Shown here one piece after another: positions 9,756 to 15,297 of a DNA stretch of 64,000 nucleotides. Within the stretch, counting starts at the first letter, position 1. Each line of letters begins with the position of its first letter. A program made the translations under genes and the position numbers. Below the pieces are notes generated by a model. The model was not told the origin of the DNA and made no database searches. It saw nothing but the letters and a program-made list of their open reading frames with translations. Source of the stretch: Acidimicrobiales bacterium. Its GTDB lineage: Bacteria; Actinomycetota; Acidimicrobiia; Acidimicrobiales; RAAP-2. The DNA lies in the NCBI GenBank assembly GCA_025351385.1, contig JANXWA010000024.1:124001-188000 (forward strand), given 5' to 3'.

Positions 9756-10718
9756 TTGCCACAGCCGCTGCGATGGGGGATCATAGGTACCGGAAGAATC
9801 GCTCACACCTTCGCGAGCGACCTGCCCTACACCGACGGGGGTGTGGTCGCCGCTGTGGGCTCACGCTCGCAACCGTCGGCCGAGGCCTTCGGCGACGAGT
9901 TCGACGTCGAGGGCCGCCACGGCTCCTACGAGGCGTTGGTGGACGATCCGTCGGTCGACGTCGTGTACGTCGCCACGCCGCACCCGATGCACTTCGACAA
10001 CGCGATGCTGGCCCTCGAGCACGGCAAGCCGGTGCTCGTGGAGAAGGCCTTCACGATGACGTCGGCGCAGGCTCGAGGGCTCGTAGAGACCGCTCGGGCG
10101 AAGAACCTCTTCATGATGGAGGCGATGTGGACGCGCTTCTTGCCCCACGTGGTGGCCCTGCGCGACATGGTCGCCAAGGGCTGGCTTGGTCGAATCGTCG
10201 TCGTCGAGGCCGACCACGGCCAATGGTTCGAACAGGACCCGACCTCACGTCTCTTCGCCCCTGAGCTCGGGGGTAGCGCCCTGCTCGACCTCGGGGTCTA
10301 CCCAATCTCGTTCGCGTCGATGCTGCTGGGCACCCCCGATCGGATCACCGCGATGGTCGATCCGTCGTTCTCCGGCGTCGATGGTCAGGCGTCCATGCTC
10401 TTCGGCTATTCGGGCGGCGCCCAGGCGGTCCTGACGTGCACGTCGGCCGCGAGGACCGCGACGAGGGCCTGCATCGCCGGCACTGAGGGGCGTATCGAAA
10501 TCGATGGTGACTTCTACGCGCCAACGTCGTTCACGCTGATCGCCCGCGGAGGCGAGACCGAGCGCTTCGAGTTCGCCTCCGAGGGACGGGGCCTGCATTA
10601 CCAGGCGACCGAGGTCGCGCGATGCATTCGTGAGGGACTCCTGGAGAGCCCAGGGATGCCCCTCGACGAGACGGTGGCGATCATGGAGACCATGGAGGCG
10701 GTGTTGGCCCACCCGTAG
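9756..10718 (+). CDS. Gfo/Idh/MocA-family oxidoreductase
   Basis: The 320-residue protein has an N-terminal Rossmann fold ([17 protein letters not shown], residues 6-22), the strand [29 protein letters not shown] with the conserved E-K of this family near residue 96, and a C-terminal alpha/beta substrate domain (EMDHG-type region at [12 protein letters not shown]). Such enzymes oxidise or reduce sugars and their derivatives with NAD(P). The sequence most resembles the dimeric dihydrodiol/D-xylose dehydrogenase branch, which would fit the sugar transporter next door, but the substrate cannot be read off. The start is TTG at 9756 with a GAGGAAAC site; a GATACT at 9715-9720 may be the -10 box. 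Confidence 0.85.
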
Positions 10719-11135
10719 AGGAGATCGGACTCCCTTCGACGCAGTCGAATGGAGTGCCCTGACGAGTCAGTCACGTCACCGATGCCCACGATGGCGGTCC
10801 GGCCGCTCGCGGGCACGGAGGTCGGTGCGTTCTAGGAGTCTTCACCACTATAAAAAGCTGTTGATCAGGTATTAGCCACTAACAATTTGAGTCAATTACG
10901 TGCCGGTGCGTCACCGTATCCGACGTGATGAGGCTTCAATCAGCGGTAGGTCGGCCGTCGAATCGAAAGTATTTGCCGCTCAATGCGAATGGTTTCGGGG
11001 AAATCAAGCCCCGTGAACAATGGAATGGAGATTCTCGTGCTAATTTCACCAATCGGACATGAGATTTCACTAAGTGTTCACGAAGTAAATAATTGCTACC
11101 GACACCACGACGGTGTCAAAGAAGGGTTGGGGATA
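10719..11135 (+). promoter_or_regulatory. 417-base leader/control region of the sugar ABC operon
   Basis: This is the longest gene-free stretch in the window and is clearly more AT-rich than its surroundings from about 10840 on. It holds a TATAAA at 10848-10853, a CGGTG-CGT-CACCG palindrome at 10904-10916, a CGGGG/CCCCG hairpin at 10996-11013, and a perfect GACACC-ACGAC-GGTGTC hairpin at 11101-11117, 19 bases before the start codon. An open frame from 10983 runs into the binding-protein gene, but it encodes no recognisable sequence before the signal peptide at 11136. The palindromes are candidates for a LacI- or ROK-type operator; no such regulator is encoded nearby. Confidence 0.5.
10729..10755 (+). 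terminator. Terminator-like hairpin after the oxidoreductase gene
   Basis: ACTCC-C-TTCGAC pairs with GTCGAA-T-GGAGT around a three-base loop (11 pairs with one C-T mismatch), starting ten bases after the stop codon. There is no T-run, as is common in GC-rich actinobacteria. Confidence 0.45.
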
Positions 11136-12365
11136 ATGAAGTTTAAGACAGGAAGGGCTCTCGCTTCAGTGGCGTTGGTCGGCACTTTTGTCGTCGCGAT
11201 GCTGCCTAGCGTCAGCTCCGGAGCAACACCGACGGTCAAGAACAGCACGTTCACACCGAGTTTCTCGACCATGAAGTACCTGAAGTCCATTGTCAAGAAG
11301 GGCCACGGCTCGATCGCCGTGATCTTGCCAGACACGAAGACGTCGGCACGTTACACCGAGTTCGACGCTCCGTACCTGATCAAGGCCTTCAAGGCGGCCG
11401 GACTCACGGGTAAGCAGTTCATCGTCCAGAATGCCCAGGGCAGCGACGCCACGCAGTTCAACATGGCGCAGGCTGACATTGCTCGGGGCGCCAAGGTCTT
11501 GCTCGTCGACCCCCTTGACTCCACCACCGGTGCAGTCATCGAGGGCTTCGCGAAGGCTCATGGCGTGAAGGTCATCGACTACGACCGCCTGACACTCGGA
11601 GGCGCACGTGCCTACTACGTGAGCTTCGACAATGTCGCGGTGGGCACGTTGATTGGCAACGGTGAGGTTTCGTGTCTGACGGCGTGGAACGTCGCGAACC
11701 CGGTGGTGTACATCTCCTACGGTTCACCGACGGACAACAACGCGACCTTGTTCGCCAAGGGCTACAACGCTGTGCTGACGGCCGCCGGGTTCAACACCAC
11801 GGCGACCACGACCACTGGCGCGAAGCAGACTGTCCTCGAGAGTGCCGGTACGTGGGATGGTCCTACGGCCTTGACCGACTTCCAGGGCGCCTTCACCGCG
11901 CACCCGTCGATCAACGCTGCGGTCACCCCGAACGACAACAACGCCTCGGGCATCATCGCGTACCTGCAAAGTAAGGGTCTCAAGCCGAAGACGTTCCCGT
12001 TCACCGGCCAAGACGCTTCACTCGTTGGGTTCCAGAACGTGATCTCGGGCTACCAGTGTGGCACCGTCTACAAGCCGATCTGGCTCGAAGCTCAGGCCGC
12101 TGCCTCCCTGGCCGTGTACCTGCGCGCCGGCATCAAGCCGCCCGCCGGTCTCGTCAATGGCACCACGCCTGACTCCGTGACCAAGAAGAACGTGAGTTCA
12201 GTGCTGCTGACCGCGACCTGGGTGACGGCTGACAAGATTCAAAAGACCGTGGTGGCTGACAAGGTCATCAAGCCTTCGGATCTCTGCACGGCAACGTCGC
12301 CGACGGTTGCTGGTTCATCCCAGCCGACCTACGCAGTGGACTGCACGACGTACGGCATTAAGTAG
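11136..12365 (+). CDS. Sugar ABC transporter substrate-binding protein (CUT2/XylF-like)
   Basis: The protein starts with a Sec signal peptide (MKFKTGRALASVALVGTFVV..., cleavage near SSGA-TPT). It then has the periplasmic-binding-protein fold of the ribose/xylose class: IAVILPDTKTSARYTEFD, AKVLLVDPLDS, VKVIDYDRLTLGG with YYVSFDN, and AAVTPNDNNASGIIAYL in the second lobe. The YDR and SFDN elements are typical of XylF-like pentose-binding proteins, so xylose or a related sugar is likely, though not proven. The mature protein has 380 residues, roughly normal. The ATG at 11136 is chosen over an in-frame ATG at 10983 because it is followed by the signal peptide and preceded by AAGGGTTGGGG. Confidence 0.9.
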   Translation: MKFKTGRALASVALVGTFVVAMLPSVSSGATPTVKNSTFTPSFSTMKYLKSIVKKGHGSIAVILPDTKTSARYTEFDAPYLIKAFKAAGLTGKQFIVQNAQGSDATQFNMAQADIARGAKVLLVDPLDSTTGAVIEGFAKAHGVKVIDYDRLTLGGARAYYVSFDNVAVGTLIGNGEVSCLTAWNVANPVVYISYGSPTDNNATLFAKGYNAVLTAAGFNTTATTTTGAKQTVLESAGTWDGPTALTDFQGAFTAHPSINAAVTPNDNNASGIIAYLQSKGLKPKTFPFTGQDASLVGFQNVISGYQCGTVYKPIWLEAQAAASLAVYLRAGIKPPAGLVNGTTPDSVTKKNVSSVLLTATWVTADKIQKTVVADKVIKPSDLCTATSPTVAGSSQPTYAVDCTTYGIK

Positions 12366-12373
12366 TCTCTAAA

Positions 12374-12457
12374 CAATGACGTTGACCCCCGAACCACCTA
12401 CGAGTGGTGTGTCCGAAGCCGGGTACACCACAGGTGGTTCGGGGGTCGGCGTCATTG
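12374..12457 (+). repeat. 84-base near-perfect hairpin between the binding-protein and ATPase genes
   Basis: The outer arms CAATGACG (12374-12381) and CGTCATTG (12450-12457) pair fully. Next come three pairs (two of them G-U), then ACCCCCGAACCACCT (12385-12399) with AGGTGGTTCGGGGGT (12432-12446). A four-base bulge follows, then GTGGTGT (12404-12410) with ACACCAC (12425-12431). In total there are about 33 pairs around a 14-base loop. It begins nine bases after the binding-protein stop codon. Such structures commonly stabilise the upstream mRNA or attenuate read-through so that the binding protein is made in excess. Confidence 0.85.
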
Positions 12458-13224
12458 ACAAGGAGCAGCTGCTCAGTCTTCGCGGCATCGCGAAGAGTTT
12501 CGGTCCGGTGCAGGCGCTCAAGCGCGTGGACCTCGACGTTCCTCCGGCCCAAGTAACGGCGCTAATCGGCGACAACGGTGCCGGCAAGTCGGTGCTCATC
12601 AAGACGATCTCCGGGATCTACCCGGCCTCCGCCGGACAGATCTTTTGGAAGGGCCGAGAGGTCCATCCTCACACCCCTCGTGACTCCAGCGAGCTCGGCA
12701 TCGCGACGGTGTACCAGGACCTGGCCCTGTGCGACAACCTCGACATCGTCCAGAACATGTATCTGGGCCGCGAGGAGACTCGTTTCACCCAACTCGACGA
12801 GATCAAGATGGAGTTGGCGACGAAGGAGCTTCTGAAGGACTTGGCGGTGTCCACCGTGAAGTCCGTGCGTCAACTGGTCGGCTCGCTCTCGGGTGGCCAG
12901 CGCCAAGCGATCGCCGTCGCCCGTGCGGTCATGCGGGACTCCGAACTGGTGATCATGGACGAACCGACCGCCGCGCTCGGCGTCTCCCAGACGGCCCAGG
13001 TGCTCGAGCTCGTGCGCACCTTGGCCTCACGAGGTATTGCCGTGATCCTCATCTCGCACAACCTGAACGACGTCTTCAAGGTGGCGGACCGCATCGCCGT
13101 GATGCACCTCGGGACGCTGGTGAGTCACGGACCGATCGCCAACTACGACGTCGCGAGCGCCGTCGAGATGATCACGACCGGTGCGTCGAGTCGCGTGCCT
13201 ACGAATTCGCCCAACGGCGACTGA
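12376..13224 (+). CDS. Sugar ABC transporter ATP-binding protein (single-domain, XylG/FrcA-like)
   Basis: One ABC cassette is present: Walker A GDNGAGKS, Q-loop VYQDLALCDNL, signature LSGGQRQAIA, Walker B LVIMDEPTAAL and the switch His in ILISHN. CUT2 ATPases often carry two cassettes. This one, about 270 residues, is the short single-cassette type such as FrcA. It powers import together with the permease at 13242. The start is uncertain. The ATG at 12376 lies inside the large hairpin and has no ribosome-binding site, GTG at 12409 is in the hairpin too, and homology only begins near QLLSLRGIAKSFG at about 12466. An AAGGAG is present at 12460-12465, but only CTG follows it at a usable distance. 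Confidence 0.88.
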   Translation: MTLTPEPPTSGVSEAGYTTGGSGVGVIDKEQLLSLRGIAKSFGPVQALKRVDLDVPPAQVTALIGDNGAGKSVLIKTISGIYPASAGQIFWKGREVHPHTPRDSSELGIATVYQDLALCDNLDIVQNMYLGREETRFTQLDEIKMELATKELLKDLAVSTVKSVRQLVGSLSGGQRQAIAVARAVMRDSELVIMDEPTAALGVSQTAQVLELVRTLASRGIAVILISHNLNDVFKVADRIAVMHLGTLVSHGPIANYDVASAVEMITTGASSRVPTNSPNGD

Positions 13225-13241
13225 ACGGAAGGTACCTTCTC

Positions 13242-14498
13242 GTGTCGACCCCCTTGGAGGCCAGCTCGTCTGAGCAGGTTGACGACGTGTCGTCGTCCGT
13301 GTCACTGGCAAAACAGATTCGACGGCTGTGGCAAGGCGACACGGGCCTCGGTCCGATCCTCATAGGGCTTCTTGTCCTCATCATCTACTTCGAAGCTCGA
13401 ACTTCGGTGTTCCTCTCGGCGGGGAACATCACCAATCTCTTCATCCAGGCGACGATTTTCATCCTCTTGGGGATGGCCGAGATCTGGCTGCTGCTGATGG
13501 GCGACATCGACCTCTCCATTGGTTACTCGGCTGGCATCGGCGGGGCCGTCGCCGTCATCCTCACCAGCACCCAGCACGACTGGTCGTGGTTCATCGCGCT
13601 CCCGCTCGGCGTGCTCGCCTGCGTGCTGATCAGCGTGGTGTGGGGCACGATCGTCATTCGCTTGCGACTGCCCTCCTTCATTGTCACCCTGGCCGGCCAG
13701 ATCGGACTGCTCGGCGTCCTGCTCTACCTCATCAATAGCCAGGGCAACACGGGAGGATCACTCCCCGTGCAAGAGAAGGTGCTCTACGACCTAGTCAACG
13801 GCGACCTCAGCCCCGTGGCCACCTGGGTAGTGATCGTGGCGTCGGTCGTCTTGCTCGGCTGGATTATCCTGCGCTCCGATCAGCGTCGTCGCTCCGCGGG
13901 GCTGGAGGCCAAGCCCATGTGGCTGAGCTTTGCCAAGGTCATTGCGTTGGCGGCGGCCGGCGTGCTACTGGCCATCATCTTCAACACGAACCGATCGTCC
14001 TTCACCTTCTTGAACGGCATGCCCTTCGCCATCCCGATTGACCTAGGAGTGTTGGCGGCAGGCACATTCATCCTCACCAAGACCCGGGCCGGTCGGTACA
14101 TCTACGCGATTGGGGGCAACGTCGAGGCGGCGCGCCGGGCCGGCATCAACGTCAACCGCTATCGTCTGCTCGCCTTCGTGTTCTCCGGTTTCACCACCGG
14201 CATCGCGGGCCTGCTCTACGTCTCGCGACTCAACGGGATCTCGACCGGCATCGAAGGTGGCACCTACGTGCTCTACGCCGTCGCCGCGGGCGTCATCGGC
14301 GGCACCAGCCTCTTCGGCGGACGAGGGAAGATGATCCACGCCGTCGTCGGTGGACTGGTGATCGCCACCATCTACAACGGCATGGCTCTCATCAACGTGA
14401 GCGCCGCGGGTCTCTACATGGTGACGGCGTTGGTCCTACTCGCCGCTGTGGTGGTCGACGCGATCGCCCGTCGGAGCAACTCCTCGTCCACCAATTAG
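13242..14498 (+). CDS. Sugar ABC transporter permease (XylH-like, CUT2)
   Basis: The 418-residue inner-membrane protein has about ten hydrophobic segments and the BPD_transp_2 signatures. These are the MGDIDLSIG loop (residues about 85-95), LRLPSFIVTLAGQIGLLGV, and the C-terminal GRYIYAIGGNVEAARRAGINV followed by GGTSLFGGRGK. Its length matches XylH rather than the shorter RbsC. It forms the sugar channel with the preceding ATPase. The start is GTG at 13242, 17 bases after the ATPase stop, with GGAAGG upstream. The same frame is open further upstream, but that part overlaps the ATPase and reads as out-of-frame sequence. Confidence 0.92.
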   Translation: MSTPLEASSSEQVDDVSSSVSLAKQIRRLWQGDTGLGPILIGLLVLIIYFEARTSVFLSAGNITNLFIQATIFILLGMAEIWLLLMGDIDLSIGYSAGIGGAVAVILTSTQHDWSWFIALPLGVLACVLISVVWGTIVIRLRLPSFIVTLAGQIGLLGVLLYLINSQGNTGGSLPVQEKVLYDLVNGDLSPVATWVVIVASVVLLGWIILRSDQRRRSAGLEAKPMWLSFAKVIALAAAGVLLAIIFNTNRSSFTFLNGMPFAIPIDLGVLAAGTFILTKTRAGRYIYAIGGNVEAARRAGINVNRYRLLAFVFSGFTTGIAGLLYVSRLNGISTGIEGGTYVLYAVAAGVIGGTSLFGGRGKMIHAVVGGLVIATIYNGMALINVSAAGLYMVTALVLLAAVVVDAIARRSNSSSTN

Positions 14499-14520
14499 TG
14501 CCCGCTGGGCGTCGACGGTC

Positions 14521-14526
14521 TAGTCT
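14521..14526 (+). promoter_or_regulatory. -10 element, leaderless start at 14533
   Basis: TAGTCT, six bases, then GTG at 14533. This gives the SDR gene its own promoter although it follows the transporter by only 34 bases. Confidence 0.6.
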
Positions 14527-14532
14527 CGACCC

Positions 14533-15297
14533 GTGGAATCCTCGCTCGAAGGTCGTATCGCCGTCGTCACCGGCGCCAGTCGCGGCATCGGACTCGCCAT
14601 CGCTCAGCGACTCGTGGCGTCAGGAGCGTCGGTTGTGATCTCATCACGCCGGGCGGAGAACCTCGCCAAGGCGCAGTCGACCTTTGACGATCCGTCGAAG
14701 GTCCTCAGTGTCGCGAGCCACGTCGGATCCCGCCAGGATGCGAACAGTCTGATCGAGAAGGCCATCGAGCACTTCGGGTCGTTGGACATCCTCGTCAACA
14801 ACGCCGGGACGAATCCCTACTTCGGGCCCCTCGTCGACATTGACGACGCGCTGATGCAAAAGACCTACGAGGTCAACCAGGCCTCTATCGTCACCCACAC
14901 GGCCGCCGCCTGGCACCAGTGGATGAAGGGCCACGGGGGAGTCGTGTTGAACATCGCCTCGATCGGCGGGCTCGGCCCGGAACCGGGGATCGGTTGGTAC
15001 AACGTCACGAAGGCCGCGGTCATTCATCTCACGAAGCAGCTGGCCTGGGAGTTGAGCCCCGGTGTGCGGGTGAACGCCATCGCCCCCGGACTCGTCCGCA
15101 CCGACCTCGCCCGCAAGCTGTGGGAGGAGCGTGAACCCGAGATCGCTTCGCGTATCCCGCTTCGCCGGATCGGCGAGCCTGACGACATCGCGTCGATGGC
15201 GTTGACGCTCGTCAGCGACGCGTCGTCGTGGATCACGGGTCAGACGATCGTCATCGACGGTGGAGCGACGAACCAGCCCCTGGGAGGCGTTGGCTAG
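14533..15297 (+). CDS. SDR-family oxidoreductase
   Basis: A classical short-chain dehydrogenase of 254 residues: cofactor motif TGASRGIG (14-21), NNAG near 90, catalytic Ser in NIASIGG, YNVTK (Tyr near 157, Lys four later), and the terminal ITGQTIVIDGG. It resembles FabG/glucose-dehydrogenase-like enzymes; the substrate is not readable. Lying behind a sugar ABC transporter, and with an Idh-type oxidoreductase ahead of it, it may take part in sugar oxidation. Its stop codon overlaps that of menE on the other strand by four bases. Confidence 0.88.
   Translation: MESSLEGRIAVVTGASRGIGLAIAQRLVASGASVVISSRRAENLAKAQSTFDDPSKVLSVASHVGSRQDANSLIEKAIEHFGSLDILVNNAGTNPYFGPLVDIDDALMQKTYEVNQASIVTHTAAAWHQWMKGHGGVVLNIASIGGLGPEPGIGWYNVTKAAVIHLTKQLAWELSPGVRVNAIAPGLVRTDLARKLWEEREPEIASRIPLRRIGEPDDIASMALTLVSDASSWITGQTIVIDGGATNQPLGGVG

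Follow-up and report, generated by a model that had tools for sequence, protein, structure and literature searches.

In a genus of Acidimicrobiales, the junction between the binding-protein and ATPase genes of a sugar-type ABC importer operon was found to carry a long hairpin. By comparison of 64 such junctions, structure rather than letters is conserved there, though the stretch is most likely translated. This hairpin is probably a cis-acting RNA element through which more binding protein than ATPase and permease is made.

The window, that is, the whole 64-kb stretch of DNA analysed, contained the operon in the order binding protein, single-domain ATPase, permease, as assigned from Pfam and NCBIfam matches (Table 1). 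Among NCBIfam models the binding protein resembled XylF best and the permease GguB, each under the cut-off of the family. The longest frame of the binding protein opens at 10983, and its likely start is the ATG at 11136, ahead of a signal-peptide-like stretch.

Table 1. Coordinates in the window of the operon genes, the junction and the parts of the hairpin.
Feature	Position	Strand	Remark
Binding-protein gene, XylF-like	11136..12365	+	Pfam Peripla_BP_4 (PF13407); likely start
Binding-protein stop codon	12363-12365	+	
Spacer, 8 nt, binding-protein stop to stem	12366..12373	+	without Shine-Dalgarno; contains in-frame stop 12370-12372
Hairpin, 84 bases	12374..12457	+	
Hairpin outer arms, 26 pairs	12374-12399 / 12432-12457	+	
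Hairpin bulge, 4 nt	12400-12403	+	
Hairpin inner arms, 12 pairs	12404-12415 / 12420-12431	+	
Hairpin loop, 4 nt	12416-12419	+	
ATPase start codon ATG	12376-12378	+	3rd-5th base of stem, foot of 5' arm
ATPase N-terminal extension	12376..12468	+	31 codons ahead of LLSLRG, mostly hairpin-encoded
Single-domain ABC ATPase gene, 282 aa	12376..13224	+	PF00005
Permease gene	13242..14498	+	BPD_transp_2 (PF02653)

By ortholog search, the operon is patchy within the genus. An ATPase ortholog at E≤1e-90 was missing from 36 of the 99 genus genomes, one of which (G014) holds a partial ortholog, and from 19 of the 59 genomes that were at least 90% complete and at most 5% contaminated. Two ATPase matches, L067 (G007) and L117 (G063), contain one in-frame stop apiece, TGA and TAA, and these are read as broken genes or assembly errors.

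The 84-base hairpin announced at this junction in a preliminary description was borne out by folding. The minimum free energy of 12360-12480 was -79.4 kcal/mol, against -38.1 (sd 3.7) for 200 dinucleotide shuffles, none of which was as low (z -11.1); the stem itself was computed at -70.2 kcal/mol. The earlier figure of about 33 pairs was too low, since 38 pairs were counted (34 Watson-Crick and 4 G-U). The hairpin ranked first among the 24 inverted repeats in the 64-kb window with at least 20 nt and arms within 300 nt, its arms being 92% complementary and those of the other 23 at most 85%. No Rfam covariance model scored over its gathering score in the window.

A mobile or dispersed element (REP, MITE or Rickettsia palindromic element) was considered and rejected, because the hairpin is present as a single copy in the 2.18-Mb assembly. 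The search of this assembly (G000) returned, besides the hairpin itself, two 14-nt matches only (E 1.93). A 16-mer of the 5' arm occurred at 46 loci across the genome collection, and the two inspected, from Acidimicrobiaceae and Acidimicrobiales, were not the same hairpin.

The longest ATPase frame starts inside the stem without a ribosome-binding site, as had been described: ATG 12376 is its first start, an in-frame stop lies two codons ahead, and a Shine-Dalgarno is absent (anti-SD energy -0.8). The way in which the ATPase starts had been called unclear, and this was largely answered by comparison of 64 genus junctions, comprising 63 orthologs at E≤1e-90 from the 99 genomes and the partial ortholog L077; these genomes are partly incomplete and the junction rows share ancestry, so that cells and pairs are not independent events. 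An in-frame start was present in or close to the stem at all 64 junctions (ATG in 57, GTG in 7). The first ATG was chosen where present, and in L058, L063, L094 and L106 a GTG or TTG precedes it by one or two codons. The distance from stop to start was 21-65 nt in ten members of the genus. No in-frame start was found before the binding-protein stop in the 64 junctions, where as many as 60 codons preceding the domain were covered. A start upstream of the hairpin, which the preliminary description had named as evidence against its reading, thus appears to be lacking in these junctions and in the window, where an in-frame stop intervenes.

Furthermore, the frame was open from the start codon at the stem to the ATPase domain in 64 of 64 cases, the other two frames being open in 18 and 23 of 64, a count that is partly built in, as starts were picked downstream of the last in-frame stop. 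The position of the chosen start, at the stem and 25-32 codons before the domain, does not follow from this choice. With a conserved start in or near the stem and an open frame beyond it, ribosomes therefore most likely read through the hairpin, which would be translated.

Homology recognisable only after the hairpin had also been reported, and this held for the family models: the Pfam ABC_tran match begins at residue 48 of the ATPase, and the best 25 of 190 NCBIfam matches begin at residue 28 or later, that is, from the last base of the hairpin onward. It did not hold within the genus, where alignments of orthologs begin at residue 1 or shortly thereafter, the closest with 84% identity across residues 1-279.

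The fold of the junction was then compared with shuffled sequences across the genus, the ATPase/permease junction serving as a control for the hairpin statistics. The mean z was -5.86, and 62 of the 64 junctions lay below all 100 dinucleotide shuffles; the ATPase/permease junctions gave a mean z of -0.10 and the binding-protein tails -0.61, with one case beating all shuffles in each control (1/64 and 1/63). When the peptide was preserved by synonymous-codon shuffling, the mean z was -3.2 and 35 of 64 extensions were matched by none of 150 shuffles, whereas in 29 at least one shuffle equalled the fold. Permuting the extension's own synonymous codons gave -3.7, with 41 of 64 reached by none, and synonymous shuffling of control stretches from the same genes gave -0.32 (n=319, 6 under -3). 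The synonymous z was near zero in L066, L096, L107 and L108, in L066, L107 and L108 because the 5' arm, with a Shine-Dalgarno, precedes the ATG.

The two arms have changed together. With the arms fixed and partners limited to those less than 80% identical, own arms outpaired swapped arms in 3877 of 3938 swaps, and the own arm was the best partner overall in 46 of 64 junctions. A 14-pair register was 89.7% paired in the 49 alignable rows, and sliding it by 1-3 left at most 50.3% paired; it contained 91 cells changed on both sides against at most 22 when slid, a count based on 14 hand-chosen columns in the best of 28 registers. Fifteen rows were excluded from it by eye (L066, L067, L068, L070, L071, L077, L107, L108, L113, L115-L118, L120 and L121). 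RNAalifold recovered only 4 pairs from the full 64-row alignment, because arms and loops vary in length and register.

In 55 close pairs, the extension and the gene body changed at similar rates (0.124 vs 0.135 changes per site), and third positions accounted for 235 of 579 changes in the extension (41%) against 3606 of 4465 in the body (81%). Hence, amino acids vary freely in the extension and synonymous sites are constrained, the reverse of the gene body, and the poorly conserved peptide looks like a passenger. In L121 an unrelated 21-pair stem, the main part of which begins after the ATG, encodes another peptide; the peptides of L068 and L066 differ as well and are still hairpin-encoded.

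A weak signal of a second hairpin was observed at the beginning of the ATPase domain, over LRGIxKxFGPVQAL (domain start to +66). Its mean synonymous z was -1.71 in the genus (24/64 below -2) and -0.88 in the outgroups (6/32 below -2).

Hairpins were also found behind other binding-protein genes. The organism's own genome contains 21 such genes of four Pfam families (L182, L183, L204-L222), all evaluable except L207 and none chosen by an energy scan for hairpins. A hairpin at z≤-3 followed 14 of the 20, the gene in the window included and L221 being borderline (z about -3.0). The stems of L213 and L214 exceed 20 pairs; in L183 a hairpin cut by the end of the locus was seen by eye. Five of the 20 (L210, L211, L212, L215 and L219) have no following hairpin. 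As a control, none of the 27 evaluable loci among 30 located 3' of own-genome ABC ATPase genes reached z≤-2.5 (mean -0.13), two pairs of these loci having picked the same gene. In L205 the hairpin lies just after the binding-protein stop and covers the start codon of the next gene, presumably an OppB-like permease judging by its sequence, and its 3' arm encodes what we take to be a conserved permease motif.

In sister operons of the genus with PF13407 genes, 8 of 10 junctions had z below -2.5, a biased rate, as these 10 of 20 regions had mostly been pre-flagged by an energy scan; the next gene was mostly a permease. L185 of this set is below the family cut-off, L203 has a 13-pair stem by eye (z -0.6), and L198 no hairpin. 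In other genera of the order, 14 of 26 binding-protein/ATPase junctions were below z -3 (mean -3.37) and 15 of 26 beat all 100 shuffles; for the ATPase/permease junctions of these outgroups the count was 3 of 29, with a mean z of -1.04. The outgroup set held 32 loci, two of them seen twice (L072=L130, L073=L142), and 26 were shuffled; L129 and L147, in which a binding-protein stop was not found, and four loci that were too short were left out. Judging by eye, the outgroup hairpins stood between genes, ahead of the next start, in L131, L134, L144, L146 and L151, for example, and in a coding extension in L125, L133, L135, L136, L138, L143, L149 and L150, several of these by-eye hairpins having a z of only -1.7 to -2.7.

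In this comparison, the position behind a binding-protein gene is the general feature, and the genus has a special form in which the hairpin overlaps the next start. The hairpin is not indispensable, because L073, L076 and L148 are tight junctions of the order without one, and five binding-protein genes of the own genome lack it too. L074 was not counted as hairpin-less, since its called stop is doubtful and its tail is not binding-protein-like; it has a 14-pair hairpin about 160 nt upstream of that stop.

The suggestion of the preliminary description, that the hairpin holds back the ATPase or protects the upstream message and so gives more binding protein, would fit this comparative evidence: 64 junctions, the binding-protein side only, 14/20 against 0/27, and published precedents. 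In the mechanism proposed here, once the downstream message had been cleaved or arrested, the stem would stop 3'-to-5' exonucleases and the binding-protein part would be stabilised, a step modelled on malE and on the E. coli hairpins inside the coding sequence of the next gene. The folded hairpin would also block fresh initiation at the ATPase start, because this start lies in the foot of the stem without a usable Shine-Dalgarno. The ATPase would then probably be started by ribosomes just finishing the binding protein, perhaps for the most part while the 3' arm is still to be transcribed. Protection and block would both shift the ratio toward the binding protein. Nevertheless, protection would be opposed by translation of the ATPase, in which the ribosome must melt the stem.

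A more specific proposal is tentative and, as a whole, doubtful. The hairpin may be a translated element of dual use, which protects the binding-protein message at its 3' end and also keeps the ATPase start closed, and for which the genus has added the passenger codons to the ATPase; only ribosomes close behind RNA polymerase would initiate there, ahead of the synthesis of the 3' arm. If so, few ATPases and many binding proteins would come from each transcript, and the hairpin would be a folding timer within a coding sequence.

Among the alternatives, a partial transcription terminator, in which the GC-rich stem would release some polymerases after the binding-protein gene, is rather unlikely, and it has a precedent. 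In the part of the work on cellulolytic Clostridia drawn on here, stem-loops behind the binding-protein genes of ABC importers act as partial terminators, with 20.7-96.1% termination in a reporter, and those of type IV hardly have U-rich regions (PMC9045158). The placement relative to the binding-protein gene is the same as here. The intrinsic-terminator pattern of a GC-rich stem followed by a U-rich tract was, however, found here only as to the stem. At the 64 junctions the next 8 nt contained on average 1.72 T, against a background of 1.50, and at least 4 T in 3 cases, as counted with a stem segmentation that is wrong for L055, L084 and L094. No terminator-like site was found in 10700-14600. 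The stem is also longer and far more stable than the published ones, and it lies within a frame that is most likely translated. Because no U-tract follows the stem, protection was favoured over termination.

A purely translational device is less probable still. Here the stem would close the ATPase start and tie its translation to ribosomes ending the binding protein, mRNA stability being uninvolved. That the start codon lies within or near the stem at all 64 junctions agrees with such a device, and so does the cost of opening the start region. From -10 to +15 the opening energy had a median of 23.6 kcal/mol (range 10.9-43.3; 34.2 in the window) and was under 15 kcal/mol in 3 of 64 regions; the control values were 9.6 kcal/mol for 63 permease starts and 13.7 for 192 random coding sites. 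For the start codon itself the excess of pairing was only moderate, the median unpaired probability being 0.24, with 0.35 for permease starts and 0.33 for random sites. Shine-Dalgarno-like sites were rarer at the ATPase starts (7/64, 11%) than at random sites (26% of 640) or permease starts (46% of 63), and by eye they were largely paired in L066, L067, L107 and L108 and partly in L077 and L115. Thus, the features of a translationally coupled start, namely a closed start, a near upstream stop and no Shine-Dalgarno of its own, occurred together in the window and in most of the genus. Against a device of translation alone, many comparable hairpins in the own genome and in relatives precede the next start, by eye, and could not act in this manner.

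It is quite improbable that the repeat is a palindrome acting at the level of DNA (a cruciform, a protein site, or arms homogenised by template switching), the RNA form of which has no function under selection. Arms can come to co-vary through template switching even where nothing is selected. The mismatches also leave room for such a palindrome, as G-U pairs were not in excess over A-C: in whole stems there were 116 G-U and 148 A-C, leaning toward A-C (p 0.056), and among isolated internal mismatches 32 and 23 (p 0.28). Mismatch types do not prove that RNA, rather than a DNA palindrome, is the selected form. The fixed place directly behind binding-protein genes speaks against a palindrome of this kind, as do the absence of one at the ATPase/permease junction and behind the 27 ATPase loci, the frame open in 64 of 64 cases, and the unrelated replacement stem of L121. 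Finally, it is very improbable that the peptide of the extension is functional and that the stem arises only as a consequence of its codons. A TPES/GSGV-like pattern is seen repeatedly among the members, but the fold is weakened by synonymous shuffles, the first and second codon positions of the extension change freely, and L121, L068 and L066 encode differing peptides by hairpins.

A cis-acting RNA element favouring the binding protein, the reading preferred here, would bear on an old question, namely how an excess of binding protein over the pump is obtained from one message, to which E. coli and Clostridia have given the answers found. The 64 junctions of the genus form a natural series, the structure staying constant while letters, and even the peptide, turn over. 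A regulatory RNA and a protein N-terminus would share the same bases, the RNA being the main constraint, and caution is advised, since annotated N-terminal extensions can be RNA elements.

Translationally coupled start codons that are hidden in a hairpin are a known class. The junctions resemble it in the closed start region, the near upstream stop and the lack of a Shine-Dalgarno; they differ in that both arms lie mainly within the downstream coding sequence, and the coupling is inferred here. Among the titles and abstracts listed in searches of open-access literature, no start-codon hairpin of such kind was found in a binding-protein operon.

The stem-loops of Clostridia, in the part of that study used here, likewise lie directly behind the binding-protein gene and are linked to an excess of its transcript, and they are intergenic, have energies of -38.3 to -10.1 kcal/mol and mostly carry some U-rich tail (PMC9045158). 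Unlike those so described, the present hairpin is most likely translated, has about -70 kcal/mol and lacks a U-tract.

The closest likeness is to E. coli. According to the portion of the study considered, hairpins without U-tracts protect the 5' gene there, which in ABC operons encodes a binding protein, and 17 of 26 such hairpins lie within the downstream coding sequence (PMC5927463). The features of this differential-decay type were found here as well, with a hairpin behind the binding-protein gene, an open frame, no U-tract, constrained wobble positions and a structure that relatives have retained. As in the E. coli cases reported in that portion, malE-malF included, a stable stem without a U-tract borders a binding-protein gene; those hairpins lie on average 107 nt into the coding sequence, whereas here the hairpin is at the start codon itself, and differential decay was measured there, whereas the present hairpin is known from sequence alone (PMC5927463). 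The 38 pairs, an N-terminal extension that seemingly exists for the stem and the compensatory changes across the genus set it apart from the E. coli hairpins as given in that text. Hence, hairpins behind binding-protein genes are known, and what is unusual here is the fusion of the hairpin into the start of the next gene without a U-tract or a Shine-Dalgarno.
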